From NCBI GenBank assembly GCA_020073265.1, contig JAIQFN010000045.1:1-46058 (forward strand): a stretch of 46,058 bases of DNA, read 5' to 3'. The first letter of the stretch is position 1. Each line of letters begins with the position of its first letter. This document shows, one piece after another, positions 8,631-16,265 of this stretch. The notes under the pieces were generated by a model. That model had not been told where the DNA came from, ran no database searches, and was given only the letters and a program-made list of their open reading frames with translations. The translations under genes were made by a program, and so were the position numbers. Source of the DNA: Terriglobia bacterium (GTDB taxonomy: Bacteria; Acidobacteriota; Terriglobia; Bryobacterales; Bryobacteraceae).

Positions 8631-8722
8631 GTTACGCATCAATCCTGGCGCGGCTTCCGTTCATACCTCGCGCCCGCCAGGCCGGACCGGGGAGCAGTAT
8701 TTTGTGCGAAGAAAGGAACAAT

Positions 8723-10813
8723 GTGAGCCGAAGATTTTTTGTTCGTCTGGTCCCCGTGGCGGGCCTGCTGGTATGCGCGACGTTGCCGCTGCTGGCTCAA
8801 TCGGGAACGAAGAACGGCGAGTGGACCACCTACGCCGGTGACCTCGGCGCGACGCGCTACGCCCCGCTCGATCAGATCAACGCCTCCAACTTCAACAAGC
8901 TCGAAGTGGCCTGGCGCTTCAAGACCGACAGCCTCGGGCCGCGTCCGGAATTTCAATACGAGACCACGCCGCTCATGGTCCACGGCGTGATTTACGCGAC
9001 CGCCGGTACGCGCCGCGCGGTTGTGGCGCTGGACGCCGCCACCGGCGAAATGCTGTGGATGCACGGCGAGAATGAAGGCAAGCGCGGCCAGGATGCGCCC
9101 CGGCAGCTTTCCGGGCACGGCGTCTCCTACTGGACCGATGGGCGGGAAGAGCGCATCCTCTACGTCACGCCCGGCTACCGGCTGATCGCACTGAACGCCA
9201 AGACCGGCGTTCCGGTTTCCACTTTCGGCAACAACGGCGTGGTGGATCTCAAGCTTGACGACGACCAGGAGATCGATCTCGAAACCGGCGAAGTCGGTCT
9301 GCACTCGACGCCGCTGGTGGCGGGCGACGTGGTGGTGGTCGGCGCGGCCCACAAGGCCGGCGGAAATATACCGAGCTACAGACACATCAAAGGCTACGTC
9401 CGCGGGTTCGACGCGCGCACCGGCAAACGCCTCTGGATCTTCCACACCATCCCCAAGCCCGGCGAAGTCGGCATCGAAACCTGGCTCAACGATTCCTGGT
9501 CCTACACCGGGAACGCCGGCGTCTGGGCGCAGATGTCCGCCGACGAAAAAACGAACACGCTGTACCTGCCCGTCGAGTTGCCCACCGGCGACTATTACGG
9601 CGGCCATCGCCCCGGCTCCGGACTCTTCGGCGAAAGCATCGTCGCGCTGGATCTCAAAACCGGCCAGCGCAAGTGGCATTACCAGCTTGTGCACCACGGC
9701 ATCTGGGACATGGACATTCCCTGCGCGCCCATCCTGGCGGACATCACCATCAATGGCCAGACCGTGCCGGCGCTGGCGCAGCCCACCAAGCAGGCGTTTC
9801 TCTACGTGTTCAATCGCATCACCGGCAAACCCATCTGGCCGATCGAAGAAAAGCCCGTGCCGCAGGGCGACGTGCCCGGCGAATGGTATTCGCCCACGCA
9901 GCCGATTCCCAGCAAGCCGCCGGCTTACGACAACCAGGGCGTCACGCTGGACGATCTGATCAATTTCACGCCGGAGCTGCACGAGCAAGCGGTGCAGGCG
10001 GTTTCAAAGTACAAGCTCGGACCGCTCTTCACTCCTGCCGTGGTGAGCAAGGCCGAGGGACCGCTGGCCGCCATCACCTCACCGGGATCGCTGGGTGGAA
10101 CAAATTGGCCGGGCGGATCCTACGATCCCGAGACCCACACCGTGTACGTGTTCTCGCAGACCACCACGGCCAACCTCGGCCTGGTGGCGCCGCAACCCGG
10201 CAGATCTGACATGAACTTCGTACAAGGCAGCGCGGCCGCGGGACGAGGCGGACGCGGCGGTGGGCGTGGGGGCGCAGTTGCTCCACCTGCTCCGGGCGTC
10301 GGCGAGCCGCCGCCAGCGGGTCGAGGGCCAGCGGCCGGCCGCGGCGCTGGTGGCGGAGGATCGGGCGAGGGCGGCGGCTTCGGATTGAACGTCCAGGGCC
10401 TGCCTTTGCTCAAGCCGCCCTACGGCCGCATCACCGCCATCGATCTCAACAAGGGCGAAATCGCGTGGCAGATCGCGCACGGCGAGACGCCCGATAACAT
10501 CCGCAACAGTGCGGCGCTCAAAGGGCTTACCATCCCGCGCACCGGCCGCCCCGGCATCATCGGCGTGCTCACCACCAAGAGCCTGGTGATTGCGGGCGAG
10601 GCCGGCTTCTTCACCACGCCATCCGGGCAGCGCGGCGCGATGCTGCGCGCCTATGACAAAGCCACCGGCAAGGAAGTGGGCGCCGTCTACATGCCCGCGC
10701 CTCAGACCGGCTCGCCGATGACCTACATGCTGAACGGCCAGCAGTACATCGTGGTCGCCATCAGCGGCGCGGGTTACAGCGCCGAGTTGCTGGCGTTCAA
10801 GCTCGGCTCTTGA
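8723..10813 (+). CDS. PQQ-dependent (quinoprotein) dehydrogenase, periplasmic
   Basis: About 696 residues of the eight-bladed quinoprotein alcohol/glucose dehydrogenase family. It opens with WTTYAGDLGATRYAPLDQIN, which is typical for the first propeller blade. GTRRAVVALDAATGEMLW and GLFGESIVALDLKTGQRKWHYQ are tryptophan-docking repeats, and HHGIWDMDIPCAPIL is the family signature. The N-terminus SRRFFVRLVPVAGLLV is a signal peptide with a twin-arginine-like SRRFF motif. GTG 8723 is chosen because AAAGGAACAAT precedes it, but an earlier TTG 8702 is possible. Residues 504-554 form a Gly/Arg/Pro/Ala-rich insertion. The substrate is unknown. Electrons would pass to quinone or cytochrome c. Confidence 0.92.
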   Translation: MSRRFFVRLVPVAGLLVCATLPLLAQSGTKNGEWTTYAGDLGATRYAPLDQINASNFNKLEVAWRFKTDSLGPRPEFQYETTPLMVHGVIYATAGTRRAVVALDAATGEMLWMHGENEGKRGQDAPRQLSGHGVSYWTDGREERILYVTPGYRLIALNAKTGVPVSTFGNNGVVDLKLDDDQEIDLETGEVGLHSTPLVAGDVVVVGAAHKAGGNIPSYRHIKGYVRGFDARTGKRLWIFHTIPKPGEVGIETWLNDSWSYTGNAGVWAQMSADEKTNTLYLPVELPTGDYYGGHRPGSGLFGESIVALDLKTGQRKWHYQLVHHGIWDMDIPCAPILADITINGQTVPALAQPTKQAFLYVFNRITGKPIWPIEEKPVPQGDVPGEWYSPTQPIPSKPPAYDNQGVTLDDLINFTPELHEQAVQAVSKYKLGPLFTPAVVSKAEGPLAAITSPGSLGGTNWPGGSYDPETHTVYVFSQTTTANLGLVAPQPGRSDMNFVQGSAAAGRGGRGGGRGGAVAPPAPGVGEPPPAGRGPAAGRGAGGGGSGEGGGFGLNVQGLPLLKPPYGRITAIDLNKGEIAWQIAHGETPDNIRNSAALKGLTIPRTGRPGIIGVLTTKSLVIAGEAGFFTTPSGQRGAMLRAYDKATGKEVGAVYMPAPQTGSPMTYMLNGQQYIVVAISGAGYSAELLAFKLGS

Positions 10814-13248
10814 TAACTGGGCCGATCGTTCGCTTCGCCGCGCGCCAGTTGCGGAGGAATCCGCTTTCCTCCGCAGCCGTCATCCTTACTCTGACGCTCG
10901 GCATCGGCGTCAACACCGCGGTGTTCAGCATCCTGGACGGTTTTCTGCTGCGCAAACTGCCGTACGCGCGGCCGGAGCGCATTGCCGCGCTGGTCGTTCA
11001 CAAAGAAGGCCCCGGCCAAGGTAAACCGGCTTCCGAGGAGGACGACAGCTTCGATGGTTCGTCCTGGCAGTTGCTGAAGAGCAGTCTCGGCGGCGTGACC
11101 TTCGCCTCCTGGGGCGGCAGCGGCGGAGTGAATCTCAAGGACGGCGCCGTCGTCCGCTACGCGATCGGCAGTCGCGTCTCGGCCCGCTACTTCGATGTGC
11201 TTGGCATCCCCCTTCATCTTGGCCGCGGCTTCAGCGAACAGGAGGATTTGCCGCACGGGCCTGCCGTCGTGGTGCTCAGTTACGCGTTATGGGCTTCGAC
11301 ATTTAATTCAGATCCGCGGATTATCGGCGAGTCTATCGAGTTGAAGGGCGAGCCGCACACAGTGGTCGGTATTCTGCCGCGGAGCGCCGTGACTCCGGGC
11401 AAAGCCGATCTTTTCACGCCGCTGCGGCCCTCGACAACCGGCGAATGCGGCGGAGAGAATTGCGGCATTCTGGTCCGGCTTAAACCGGACGCCGCCTGGT
11501 CCGAAGTGAACGCGCAGCTCAGCCGCCTGCGTCTGCCCTATTTTTCGGAGCTCGAAGCCAGGCACGGCCGCGCCTGGATCTACGCACGGCCGCTCCAGCT
11601 CGAACTCGCCGGCGACACGAGTGACAAAGCTGTCGCGCTGATGCTCGCCGTGGGATTCATCCTGCTGATCGCATGCGCGAACCTTGCTGGTCTGACGCTG
11701 GCCCGCGTACACCGCCGGGCGCAGGAGATAGCCACTCGATTCGCACTCGGCGCCTCGCGCTTCAACGTGCTGTGCGAACTATGGGCGGAAAATCTGATGC
11801 TGGCGCTGCTGGGCGGGGCCGGCGGCGTCGGTCTTGCGCTCCTGATGATCTGCGTGTTGCGCGGACTCCTGCCTGACTCCATGATCCCGATCGGCGACTT
11901 CTCCGTCGGCGGACGGCTGCTCGCGTTCTCTCTCGGCGCGTCTTTCCTCGCCAGTCTCCTGTTCGGCGCGCTGCCGGCTCTTCAGACGCGCCGCCTCGAC
12001 CTGCGTTCGTCGCTTGCCTCCGGAAGCCGGGCAATTGCGCGTGGATCCAGCCGCGTCCGCCAGGCCTTGATCGGCGCTGAGGTTGCTCTCACCGTGGTCC
12101 TGCTGGCCGCGGCGGGCCTGCTGATTCGCACCCTCATCCACCTCGAGACACTGCCTCCCGGGTTCGACTCGCACAACGTCATGACCGCCACCGCCTCGCT
12201 GGATGACGCGCGCTATCACGACGCCGCCGGGTTCCACATGCTGCTCGACAAAAGCATCGCCGCCATGCGCCGGATCCCCGGCGTGGAAGATGCCGCGGCC
12301 GGTCTCAGCCTTCCTTACGAGCGCGGCCTGAATAACGGGATTACGATCATGGACGGGAAGAAAGCTGGATCGAGAACCGGATCAAGCCTTGGGTACGTGA
12401 CCCCTGGCTACTTCTCCTCGCTGCGAATTCCGTCGCTGGCGGGGCGTACCATCGTCGCGATCGACACACCAAGATCCGAACCGGTCGCAGTCGTGAACAG
12501 CGCCTTCGCCAGACGCTTCTTCGATGACCCTGCACCTGTCGGCTATCACTTCAAAACTGCTAACACCGTTTACACGATCGTCGGCGTGGTCGCCGATGTC
12601 GCCAAATCGCCCGGCATGCAGCGCTCCGCGCCGATCTCCACCGAACCGGTCGCCTATCTGCCGGCTTCCCAAACTTCGCAGGCCCTGGTGAACGTCGCCC
12701 ACATCTGGTTTCAGCCGAGCTGGATCGTGCGCACCCGCGGCCCGGTCACCGGACTTACGGCCTCGATGCAGCGCGCGCTCGCCGAGGCCGATCCCAACCT
12801 GCCTTTCTCCGGCTTCCGCTCCATGGACCAGATCCTCGCCGAGCAGCTCCGGGAGCAACGCATCGAAGTGCTGCTGCTGGCTACTCTGGCCTCGCTCGCG
12901 CTTTTGCTTTCCGCCATCGGGATCTATGCCCTGGTGTCGAACCTGGTGGTTCAGCGCACACGCGAGATCGGGATTCGCATGGCGTTGGGTTCCACAACGA
13001 AGCAAGCCATGCTGCACGTCGGTTCTTCCGGATTTTCCGCCGCCGCAGTCGGACTCGCGGCCGGTCTCGGCCTCTGCTTCTTGACGCTGCGATTTCTTTC
13101 AAACCAGATCTACGGTATCGGCACCTACGATCCGCTGACGCTTCTTGCTGTCCTGCTCATTTTGGCCGCGATCGCCGGCGCAGCCAGCCTCCTACCGACC
13201 CTGCGCATCAGCCGCATCCAACCAGCCGACACGCTTCGATCCGAATAG
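10810..13248 (+). CDS. MacB/FtsX-like ABC permease ('orphan', no ATPase)
   Basis: 812 residues. After an N-terminal QLRRNPLSSAAVILTLTLGIGVNTAVFSIL helix comes a MacB-type periplasmic core (residues 60-250). Three transmembrane helices and an FtsX domain follow (residues 265-410, with LARVHRRAQEIATRFALGASR). A second periplasmic core comes next, then a final FtsX domain (residues 680-805, with VQRTREIGIRMALGST). This duplicated architecture without an attached ATPase is typical of the large orphan permease families of Acidobacteriota. The TTG start overlaps the TGA of the dehydrogenase (TTGA 10810-10813), so the two are coupled. The role, perhaps export or mechanotransmission, is unproven. Confidence 0.88.
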   Translation: MITGPIVRFAARQLRRNPLSSAAVILTLTLGIGVNTAVFSILDGFLLRKLPYARPERIAALVVHKEGPGQGKPASEEDDSFDGSSWQLLKSSLGGVTFASWGGSGGVNLKDGAVVRYAIGSRVSARYFDVLGIPLHLGRGFSEQEDLPHGPAVVVLSYALWASTFNSDPRIIGESIELKGEPHTVVGILPRSAVTPGKADLFTPLRPSTTGECGGENCGILVRLKPDAAWSEVNAQLSRLRLPYFSELEARHGRAWIYARPLQLELAGDTSDKAVALMLAVGFILLIACANLAGLTLARVHRRAQEIATRFALGASRFNVLCELWAENLMLALLGGAGGVGLALLMICVLRGLLPDSMIPIGDFSVGGRLLAFSLGASFLASLLFGALPALQTRRLDLRSSLASGSRAIARGSSRVRQALIGAEVALTVVLLAAAGLLIRTLIHLETLPPGFDSHNVMTATASLDDARYHDAAGFHMLLDKSIAAMRRIPGVEDAAAGLSLPYERGLNNGITIMDGKKAGSRTGSSLGYVTPGYFSSLRIPSLAGRTIVAIDTPRSEPVAVVNSAFARRFFDDPAPVGYHFKTANTVYTIVGVVADVAKSPGMQRSAPISTEPVAYLPASQTSQALVNVAHIWFQPSWIVRTRGPVTGLTASMQRALAEADPNLPFSGFRSMDQILAEQLREQRIEVLLLATLASLALLLSAIGIYALVSNLVVQRTREIGIRMALGSTTKQAMLHVGSSGFSAAAVGLAAGLGLCFLTLRFLSNQIYGIGTYDPLTLLAVLLILAAIAGAASLLPTLRISRIQPADTLRSE

Positions 13249-13294
13249 GCGCTGGGCGGTGCTGAGTCGACTATGATCGAACCAGGAGGGCGTC

Positions 13295-14038
13295 TTGGTT
13301 CGGATCGGGATCATCGGTGATTTCAACCCCAAGCACCACACCCACGTTGCCATCAACACCGCGCTTGAACACAGCTCGGCGGCGCTCGGCGAGGATGTGC
13401 GAGCGCAATGGCTGCCCACGCCTGAGCTGGCCAAGCCGCACTCGGAGAAACTACTGTCGGAATGCGACGCTCTGTGGGCATCCCCGGCCAGCCCATACGC
13501 TAGCGGCGAGGGCATGTTGCGCGGGATCGAATATGCTCGCTCACACAACGTGCCGTTCACCGGGACGTGAGGCGGTTTCCAATATGCTCTGGTAGAGCAT
13601 GCGCGCAATGTGTTAGGGATCGCGGACGCAGACAGCGCCGAAAACAACCGCGCTTCCGCCACCTGGGTCGTCACGCCGCTATATTGCGCGGTGCCGCGCG
13701 GCCCCGGCGATCCTCCCACGCTGCATGATCTCCATCCCATCCGGTTGCAACCCGGCTCGCGGTTGCACTCGATCTATGGCCTGGACACTATTCAAGCCGC
13801 TCACTTCTGCAATTACGGCCTAAATCCCGAGTACCTGCCTCGCTTCCAGGCCGCCGGGATGCGAGTCGCCGGTCTGGGCGATGCCGGCGATATACGCGCC
13901 ATGGAAATTCCGGAGCATCGTTTTTATGTCGCGACCCTCTTCCATCCTCAACTTGAATCGCAACCGGAGCGCCCGAGTCCGCTTGTGACTGCGCTCGTGA
14001 ACGCGGCGCGTGGATGCGCGGACAGTGCGCGTTGTTAG
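13295..14038 (+). CDS. CTP synthase C-terminal-like glutamine amidotransferase, probable selenoprotein (TGA 13568 = Sec92)
   Basis: The 247-residue frame is intact except for one TGA at codon 92. Upstream is VRIGIIGDFNPKHHTHVAIN and, just before the TGA, HNVPFTGT. Downstream is GGFQYALVEHARNVLGIADA, the class I amidotransferase elbow. The TGA sits exactly where the nucleophilic cysteine belongs (G-T-U-G-G-F-Q versus G-I-C-L-G-M-Q in CTP synthase). A hairpin at 13584-13600 lies at SECIS distance. Further on, His217 is in LFHPQLES, where CTP synthase has HPE, so the catalytic Glu is Gln219 here. I recall relatives labelled 'CTP synthase C-terminal region-related (seleno)protein', unverified. 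The TTG start has AGGAGG at 13284-13289. It lacks the CTP-synthase kinase domain, so the reaction is unknown. A pseudogene is the alternative. Confidence 0.8.
13584..13600 (+). promoter_or_regulatory. Bacterial SECIS-like hairpin downstream of in-frame TGA
   Basis: ATGCTCT (13584-13590), loop GGT and AGAGCAT (13594-13600) make a perfect 7-bp stem, extendable by one U-G pair. The stem starts 13 nt after the TGA, and the loop GGU lies about 21 nt after it. Bacterial SECIS elements are short hairpins just 3' of the UGA with a G/GU-bearing apical loop that binds SelB, so both position and loop fit. The stem is within coding sequence, as expected for bacteria. Confidence 0.65.
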
Positions 14039-14041
14039 AAT
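14033..14041 (+). promoter_or_regulatory. Extended -10 for leaderless amidohydrolase gene
   Basis: TG-T-TAGAAT, with TAGAAT (14036-14041) 8 nt before ATG 14050 and no Shine-Dalgarno sequence. The TAG of the box is also the stop codon of the preceding selenoprotein-candidate gene. Confidence 0.5.
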
Positions 14042-14049
14042 GAAGCCCT

Positions 14050-15333
14050 ATGCGCTGGCTCAGTTTTTTCTTCGCCGCCGCGCTTGCATCGGCGCAATCC
14101 GGCCCCATCGTGCTGCGCGCCGCGCGGCTGTTTGACGGCAAATCGGATCGCGTGGTCTCGCCGGCCCTTGTGGTGGTGCTCGGCGACAAGATCCGGAGCG
14201 TCGGATCGCAGTCCGAAATTCCCGATGGCGCCCGCACTATCGATCTCGGCGACGCCACTCTGCTTCCGGGCTTCATGGACGCGCACACCCACGTCACCAT
14301 GCCACACTTCGACGACTACGGCAAGGGCATGATCTACGACATGCGTACCGGTCCCGCCGAACGGGCTTTGAACGCCACCGAAACCCTGCGCCGCACGCTG
14401 GAGGCGGGCTTCACCACGGTTCGCGACGTCGGCGCCCCGGATCTGGTGGACATAGCGCTGCGCAACGCCGTGCGCAACGGAAAGATCGCGGGCCCGCGAA
14501 TGCTGGTGGCCACTCACGCCATCGGCACCACCGGCGGCCACTGCGACGATGCCGCGGGTTTACGCCAGGGCATCTTCGGCCGCGAAATGGGAATCCAGGA
14601 CGGCATCGCCAGCGGACCCCAGCAGATGCGCGAAGCGGTCCGCTACAACGTCAAATACGGCGCCGACGTGATCAAGACCTGTGCAACCGGCGGCGTTCTT
14701 TCGCTCGCCGACGCGGTGGACACGCCGCAATTGACGCAAGCCGAGCTCGATGCGCTGGTGGACGAAGCCCACACGCTGCGCCGCAAGACCGCCGCGCACG
14801 CCCATGGAGCTGAGGGCGCCAAGCGCGCGATTCGGGCCGGCATCGATTCCATCGAGCACGGATCTTTTCTGGACGACGAAGCCCTCGACATGATGAAGCA
14901 GCGCGGCACCTATTATGTTCCGACACTGATGGCGCTGGTGGGTGTCAAGGAAGGGCTGGAACGCGGCGCGTATCCGCCGGAGGTTGCGGTGAAGGCGCGC
15001 GCCGCCGCCGCGGCACTCGACAATACGGTTCGCAAGGCGCTGGCCAAGGGCGTCAAGATCGCGGTCGGAACCGACGCCGCGGTCTACGAACACGGCCGTA
15101 ACGCGGGCGAATTTGTCGAACTGGTGCGCCTCGGCATGCGGCCGATCGACGCGCTAAAGGCCGGAACCTCCGGGGACGCCGACCTGCTAGGAATCGCCGA
15201 CCGCACCGGCTCGCTCGAATCCGGCAGGTTCGCCGACATCGTTGCCGTCGCGGGCGACCCGTCCGCCAACATCAGCGCGGTTCAACACGTGATCTTCGTC
15301 ATGAAGGAAGGGGTCGTCTATAAAGGCCGTTGA
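14050..15333 (+). CDS. Secreted amidohydrolase (imidazolonepropionase/Xaa-Pro dipeptidase-like)
   Basis: 427 residues with a signal peptide (MRWLSFFFAAALASAQS). Metal-dependent hydrolase of the amidohydrolase superfamily. GFMDAHTHV gives the strand-1 HxH (His79, His81). GADVIKTCATGGV holds the lysine typical of the bridging ligand. The strand 5-6 histidines are in AAHAHGAEGAKRAI and SIEHGSFL, and the strand-8 aspartate is in VGTDAAVYEHG. C-terminal GSLESGRFADIVAVAGDP is the usual metal-independent beta-sandwich closure. This subfamily includes prolidases and N-acyl or X-Arg/Lys carboxypeptidases, and the substrate is not decidable here. It may be leaderless. It ends in a TTGA overlap with the next gene. 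Confidence 0.9.
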   Translation: MRWLSFFFAAALASAQSGPIVLRAARLFDGKSDRVVSPALVVVLGDKIRSVGSQSEIPDGARTIDLGDATLLPGFMDAHTHVTMPHFDDYGKGMIYDMRTGPAERALNATETLRRTLEAGFTTVRDVGAPDLVDIALRNAVRNGKIAGPRMLVATHAIGTTGGHCDDAAGLRQGIFGREMGIQDGIASGPQQMREAVRYNVKYGADVIKTCATGGVLSLADAVDTPQLTQAELDALVDEAHTLRRKTAAHAHGAEGAKRAIRAGIDSIEHGSFLDDEALDMMKQRGTYYVPTLMALVGVKEGLERGAYPPEVAVKARAAAAALDNTVRKALAKGVKIAVGTDAAVYEHGRNAGEFVELVRLGMRPIDALKAGTSGDADLLGIADRTGSLESGRFADIVAVAGDPSANISAVQHVIFVMKEGVVYKGR

Positions 15334-16265
15334 CGAGTGAACGCTTCTGCCTCACTCGACTCGCTATAAAGGTTGCCGTGCTGCTTCTACCTATCGTTAG
15401 CATTCTATTCTTTCAGGGCCAGGGCGGCGACTCCGTCCTCGCGGCGCGGATTCGACAACTGCTCCATGTCGTTATCACGACCGACAACGAGAAGCAGGAA
15501 GCGGCGGCTGAAGCGGAAGCACGGGAGATTTTCAGCAAGCGCGGCCTGCCGGTAATCGCGGCCGTCGGCGACGAAGCGGCATACGAATTCGTAGTGCTGG
15601 CCTGTTTGCATGGTCCCGAGGAGTTTCAGAAGCAGGTGCTGCGAAAGGCCCGCGAAGGTGCCAAGAGACACGAGATTCCGCCTGACGCTGTGATCTACTC
15701 CGCGGCGCATGTGAGTCAGGAGATCGTAAAGGCGAAGGCCAGGAAACACGCCCCCGCCGATCCCGCACTGCGAGACGAGATCGAACGGCTCTTCACGGTC
15801 GATCAGGCCGTCCGGGAAAAGAATGGATTCGACATGGAGAAGATGATGCGAACTGACCGCGAGCACGCGCCGGCGCTCGAAGCGATCTTTGAAAAGCACG
15901 GAGTGCCGGCGTACCGGATGGTGGGGCCGCAGGCCGCGTCCGACTTCATCACCATGCTCCAGCACCAGCCACCCGAATTCCGCAGGCGAGTGTTGCCGAA
16001 GCTGAAGGCGAACGTAGACGCTGGACAGGCCGATCCGCGATCCTATGCGCAGATGCTCGACCGTTTGCTGACAGACGCCGGGCAGAAACAAACATATGGC
16101 GAGAACCTCACATGCGACCCCCAGCATCCCAGGCTGCACACCGGCCCGATCGAGGACGGGGCTCAGGTCAACCGACGGCGGGCCGCGATCGGCTTGGTAA
16201 GGCTCGAGCTGTACGCTCAGTTGGTGGTCGAGATGTCCCCGAATTTTTGCGGCGCGCCCAACTAG
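15330..16265 (+). CDS. DUF6624-type secreted protein
   Basis: 311 residues in the longest form. A hydrophobic segment (VAVLLLPIVSILFF) near the N-terminus looks like a signal or anchor. The C-terminal half (residues 145-305) carries the pattern I associate with DUF6624: LFTVDQAVREKNGF, HAPALEAIFEKHGVPAYRMVGPQAA, MLQHQPPEF, QMLDRLLTDAGQKQTYG and PIEDGAQVNRRRAAIGL. The function of the family is not known. Start choice is open: TTG 15330 overlaps the amidohydrolase stop, while GTG 15378 has AAAGG five bases upstream and would put the hydrophobic segment at the very N-terminus. It is co-transcribed with the amidohydrolase. Confidence 0.78.
   Translation: MTSERFCLTRLAIKVAVLLLPIVSILFFQGQGGDSVLAARIRQLLHVVITTDNEKQEAAAEAEAREIFSKRGLPVIAAVGDEAAYEFVVLACLHGPEEFQKQVLRKAREGAKRHEIPPDAVIYSAAHVSQEIVKAKARKHAPADPALRDEIERLFTVDQAVREKNGFDMEKMMRTDREHAPALEAIFEKHGVPAYRMVGPQAASDFITMLQHQPPEFRRRVLPKLKANVDAGQADPRSYAQMLDRLLTDAGQKQTYGENLTCDPQHPRLHTGPIEDGAQVNRRRAAIGLVRLELYAQLVVEMSPNFCGAPN

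Follow-up and report, generated by a model that had tools for sequence, protein, structure and literature searches.

The gene at positions 13295-14038 of the window (the whole stretch of 46,058 nucleotides of Terriglobia bacterium DNA that was analysed; all features given here lie on its plus strand) is predicted with high confidence to encode a full-length selenoprotein of family NF004836, a stand-alone protein of 247 residues resembling the glutaminase domain of CTP synthase, with selenocysteine (Sec) 92 specified by an in-frame TGA at 13568-13570. A probable selenoprotein had been proposed in an earlier note on this DNA, and the proposal is now supported by the selenocysteine machinery of the genome, by homologues with Cys at the same position, and by a hairpin downstream of the TGA that sets relatives with TGA apart from those with Cys or Ser. 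The predicted Sec92 falls at the nucleophile elbow in the alignment of the family, and its selenolate is probably the reactive group of a re-purposed site, not a glutaminase nucleophile.

Reading frame, hairpin and selenocysteine machinery

The frame opens with a TTG codon, 5 nt downstream of a probable ribosome-binding site (AGGAGG at 13284-13289, as read from the sequence), and closes with a TAG after 247 residues. Its sole internal stop is the TGA of codon 92, in agreement with the earlier description of a single open frame interrupted at that codon alone, and the peptides on either side are as described (HNVPFTGT before, GGFQYALVEHARNV after). TGA was the normal stop of four of the eight window ORFs examined, and it has therefore not been reassigned. 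On the same strand and with short gaps, the selenoprotein gene is preceded by that of a MacB/FtsX-type permease (10810-13248) and followed by that of an amidohydrolase (14050-15333); together with a PQQ dehydrogenase and a DUF6624 protein, these and the selenoprotein gene make up five close same-strand genes at 8702-16265. When neighbours were clustered over 22 loci (the window, L017 and 20 further stretches), no gene, the family itself excluded, was common to more than three. One of the widest clusters was the FtsX/MacB-type permease (window, L124 and L131), the adjacency of which is not constant, and another, also of three loci, was an SDR-type gene, so named by eye, next to L114, L116 and L117, which are copies of one genus. 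A shared operon was accordingly rejected as a functional clue, the widest clusters spanning 3 of the 22 loci.

Downstream of the TGA lies a SECIS-like hairpin (13583-13601), in which 13583-13590 pair with 13594-13601 (8 bp) around a GGU loop at 13591-13593. Both the hairpin and its loop had been pointed out earlier, and both stand; the distance of 13 nt given for it does not, as its first base lies 12 nt after the TGA. With a 3-nt loop, an 8-bp stem and a UGA-to-loop distance of 20 nt, the hairpin conforms to the rules for bacterial SECIS elements set out in main-text passages of a 2026 review (loop of 3-9 nt, stem of 4-16 bp, G in the first two loop positions, 16-37 nt from the UGA; PMC13188914). 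When the same place was compared across the family (columns 16-23 with 27-34 after the codon 92 position), all eight pairs were formed in 11 of 11 TGA rows, as against none of 34 Cys or Ser rows (best 7 of 8). The first set consisted of nine TGA rows, all fully paired, and 30 Cys/Ser rows, none of them so; the TGA rows added, L158 and L159, formed 8 of 8 pairs each (L160 is the same locus as L017, and was counted once), and the Cys rows added, L157, L058, L061 and L134, formed 4, 7, 5 and 5, respectively. The structure paired 100% of cells in the TGA alignment (nine rows) versus 45% in the Cys/Ser alignment (30 rows), and the loops in TGA rows were GGU or GUU. In one Cys row, a helix of 9 bp lies at another place within its 54 nt.

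When the window peptide was recoded synonymously 20,000 times, a hairpin appeared at the same place in 18 of the sequences, and one of at least 8 bp by loose bacterial SECIS rules, at any place, in 907. The folding energy of the window hairpin was not unusual (z 0.33; four other TGA rows, -1.04 to -1.97), pair covariation in the nine-row TGA alignment was weak and not significant (equalled in 135 of 500 shuffles), and no Rfam family was matched in the window at gathering scores. Given the window z and the covariation result, a thermodynamic proof of the SECIS element was given up, and the case for it rests on the contrast between TGA and Cys/Ser rows. By homology, SelB on the hairpin at 13583-13601 would deliver Sec-tRNA(Sec) to the UGA. 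The Cys row with seven pairs, L058 (genome G433; the 45 nt from its TGC codon), comes from a genome with a tRNA-Sec, and its seven pairs may be left over from an earlier Sec codon.

The window's genome, G000 (6.41 Mb in 131 contigs, 98% complete), was searched for selA, selB, selD and tRNA-Sec, as the earlier note had suggested, and all were found: selA at 442.6 bits, selB at 384.6 bits, selD at 376.5 bits, and one tRNA-Sec (selC) at 76 bits, called SeC with anticodon tca by ARAGORN. The selD gene (L049, G000:C85:8028-8939) carries an in-frame TGA as well, after which comes a hairpin of 7 bp with a GGT loop at nt 24-26 from the T of the TGA, the same register as the loop of the window hairpin; because of this TGA and the hairpin in register, SelD of this genome is probably also a selenoprotein. 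Across the genomes with TGA rows, selA was over the cut-off in nine of nine (G778 and G782 are outside this count), and selB in 10 of 11, the eleventh, G212, having selB fragments across several contigs. As selA was also over the cut-off in 22 of 32 genomes without TGA rows, its presence alone does not decide the matter. A tRNA-Sec was confirmed by ARAGORN in G000, G211, G212, G210, G043, G520 and G650, and candidates were found by score alone in G778 (75.4 bits) and G782 (73.4 bits). Two TGA genomes yielded no tRNA-Sec, G238 at 81% completeness and G282 at 95%; the latter has two equal over-cut-off matches, of which the one run through ARAGORN, L111, is a tRNA-Ser. In G197, of the window's genus, there are two tRNA-Sec matches (C223:77646 at 71.5 bits and C96:28018 at 62.6 bits), the second of them a candidate.

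Relatives with selenocysteine, cysteine or serine

The family set comprised 45 rows (11 Sec, 25 Cys and 9 Ser), the window's own row and L017/L160 being counted once each. Codon 92, which the earlier note had put at the nucleophile position of CTP synthase, aligns with Cys in 25 rows; Ser stands there in nine rows and TGA in ten others besides the window. Searched at the protein level, 257 genomes from the same order yielded at least 28 stand-alone relatives (L018-L045, own included), with TGA in at least six, stand-alone relatives being matches that score above the long CTP-synthase-like frames (a cut set by us). With NF004836 as the query, 396 genomes of the phylum gave, by the same cut, at least 13, own included, with TGA in at least three (own, G282 and G520). 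A further 257 genomes, of the order of G650, which carries the Desulfobulbaceae locus L017, gave four, with TGA in three. L017 is included in the 45 rows, as is L134, a Cys copy on a viral-labelled contig (IMGVR_UViG_2711768183_000004), where it sits amid genes that look, by eye, like ordinary bacterial ones. By tblastn, L134 was 96.5% identical to one Enterobacter plasmid record and 72.8-73.7% identical to five Klebsiella records; the annotation of these L134-like records as 'CTP synthase' is probably wrong. The nine Ser rows (L033-L035, L037-L041 and L043) read GTSAGFQ at the Sec/Cys position, and all nine have Lys in place of Glu116.

The part of the gene beyond the TGA remains under purifying selection: in six family pairs, of which one includes the Cys row L064, pN/pS was 0.31-0.50 downstream of the TGA versus 0.37-0.54 upstream. 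This bears on two other explanations of the TGA. UGA-Sec decoding is commonly inefficient, and the UGA could on that ground be taken for a true stop that yields a regulated 91-residue fragment, with read-through as a minor product; such a fragment would stop at the nucleophile, short of the remaining 155 of the 247 residues that make up the predicted fold, and with the conserved, selectively constrained part of the gene left out, which makes this account very improbable. A recent nonsense mutation, with the gene a decaying pseudogene of a Cys homologue, would fit the nearest relative in the tree (L064), which has a TGT Cys codon at the place of codon 92. It is a still fainter prospect, given that the TGA and its hairpin occur in 10 other genomes, that coding constraint persists past the TGA, that the frame has no frameshift, and that the window protein is 45-50% identical over its whole length to five other TGA rows. 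Further inactivating mutations, which the earlier note had named as a mark of a pseudogene, were not seen in the gene.

In a tree of the 45 family rows and four CTP synthases, the selenoprotein of the window is sister to the Cys copy L064 (support 99/88), and the two lie inside a group (98/95) in which seven rows have Sec and L064 alone has Cys. L017, L158 and L159 form a separate Sec group (99/96), the Sec row of G282 is isolated, and the Ser rows form a single clade (100/100). A single clade of the 11 Sec rows was rejected (AU p 0.0002), and a clade of the Sec rows together with L064 was borderline (p 0.046). The tree needs four changes of the Sec label, at least two of which are forced by well-supported branches, and is consistent with gain or loss. 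L064 itself (genome G340; TGT), lying within the Sec group and lacking the hairpin (3 of 8 pairs), is on its sequence and position a Sec/Cys switch in which the SECIS element was lost or gained.

Fold and active-site residues

AlphaFold2 modelling (window protein with 17 other rows) gave a mean pLDDT of 91.5 and a pTM of 0.90, and the model has the glutaminase fold of class I glutamine amidotransferases of the CTP synthase type. All 50 matches listed by Foldseek against the PDB were CTP synthases (best 3nva, E 1.1e-25), the best 48 of the 50 ranging from 1.1e-25 to 1.8e-18 with TMq of 0.80-0.88. The Pfam GATase profile was matched at 33 bits (cut-off 22.8), and Peptidase C26 (PF07722) remained below its gathering cut-off (18.9 versus 20.5 bits). 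The product would thus be a stand-alone CTP synthase glutaminase fold, sharing fold and nucleophile position with the glutaminase domain of PyrG (3nva, 2v4u, 1vco), with Sec in place of the nucleophilic Cys. Unlike PyrG, it has no N-terminal synthetase domain; a second match in the same genome, a 607-aa frame on contig C119, has the length of a CTP synthase and is putatively one.

The family also differs from PyrG in that the catalytic His and Glu and the glutamine-site Arg are not kept throughout. In CTP synthase the triad is Cys-His-Glu; the window protein has Sec92, His217 and Gln219, codons 217-219 (His-Pro-Gln, 13943-13951) aligning with the His-Pro-Glu site. That Gln219 takes the place of the glutamate had been noted earlier, and the FHPQ of the sequence bears it out. 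At the catalytic His position, the 44 rows with a letter have Gln (32), Val (7), Leu (4) or His (1, the window), and at the catalytic Glu position they have Glu (25), Gln (18) or Pro (1), Gln being found in the window and in 10 of the 11 Sec rows. Position 173 is Arg in 4 of 4 CTP synthases, presumably the glutamine-binding Arg470 of the E. coli enzyme, and in the family is Asn (26, window included), Ser (14) or Arg (5). Other residues are specific to the family: His17 (13343-13345; His in 44 of 45 rows, Tyr in 4 of 4 CTP synthases), Cys172 (13808-13810; Cys in 45 of 45, His in 4 of 4), Arg201 (13895-13897; Arg in 45 of 45, Glu in 4 of 4) and Tyr68 (44 of 45), the last being, like Thr91 (45 of 45) and Cys131 (41 of 45), absent from the CTP synthase rows.

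The suspicion, voiced in the earlier note, that the chemistry may not be glutamine hydrolysis at all is strengthened by the loss of the catalytic His from 43 of 44 rows, the window being the exception. If the protein were nevertheless a working glutamine amidotransferase, Sec would replace the catalytic Cys, form a selenoester with glutamine and release ammonia to a partner. The glutaminase fold and the GATase match speak for this, as do the retention of Gln96 (45 of 45) and Glu116 (34 of 45) in the family and of the triad His in the window row, and the name glutamine amidotransferase used in the literature. It is judged unlikely in the light of the His kept in a single row, the Glu-to-Gln replacement in the window and nearly all Sec rows, the Asn at the glutamine-site Arg, and the want of a widely shared partner gene among the 22 loci. 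A re-purposed site in which Sec92 is not a glutaminase nucleophile is preferred because the family has lost the His (window excepted) and the window protein the Glu and the glutamine-site Arg, and because the family has fixed residues of its own (Cys172, Arg201, His17, Tyr68 and Thr91). Since the window row alone keeps the triad His, its protein may still have residual glutaminase chemistry. Within the non-glutaminase reading, Sec92 could act as a covalent nucleophile on some other substrate, which is marginally favoured, or, at somewhat less than even chances, as a selenol/thiol redox centre paired with Cys172; the covalent role is held the likelier of the two because the Ser clade retains Cys172 with no redox partner at position 92.

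Relation to the known family

Read through with TGA as U, the protein passes NCBIfam NF004836 (266.8 bits; cut-off 260), and in a six-frame search the window gene came just below it (258.7 bits). It is a full-length match to this profile (NF004836/PRK06186, 'CTP synthase C-terminal region-related (seleno)protein') with U at codon 92, and shares the GxU motif region, listed as GxUxG in the review (PMC13188914). Unlike the rows of NF004836 in general, it is a divergent member that keeps His217, which the other 43 rows lack. A glutamine amidotransferase (COG0504, PyrG) selenoprotein was described in 2025 by deep-Sep in Desulfosediminicola ganghwensis, with TGA- and Cys-containing homologues and downstream SECIS-like elements (PMC12013277), and the 2026 review ties it to NF004836 and the motif GxUxG (PMC13188914). 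By the passages of these papers, the D. ganghwensis protein likewise has Sec at a PyrG-like site, Cys homologues and a downstream SECIS-like element, and its assignment to the same family follows the table of the review. On that footing, the window gene is a further member of a selenoprotein family already proposed computationally. Neither the loss of the His nor the Ser clade was seen in the main-text passages of PMC12013277 and PMC13188914. Relative to these passages, the present comparison contributes the difference in hairpins between TGA and Cys/Ser rows, the clade with Ser, the replaced active-site residues and the members from the window's phylum.

The analysis provides independent comparative support for the proposed family, and adds members in the window's group besides those in the order of a Desulfobulbaceae genome. 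The family is probably misnamed both as 'glutamine amidotransferase' and, in public records, as 'CTP synthase'. Among its members, Sec, Cys and Ser form a natural series at a single catalytic position, with which the question of what selenium adds to a nucleophile could be put directly. A bolder reading, and a rather doubtful one, is that NF004836 constitutes a new enzyme class derived from the CTP synthase glutaminase domain, in which Sec, Cys and Ser are interchangeable at the elbow and the His/Glu dyad has given way to His17, Tyr68, Cys172 and Arg201. Were this so, the catalytic role of Sec would be that of a covalent nucleophile without redox chemistry, which to our knowledge has hardly been described for natural selenoproteins.
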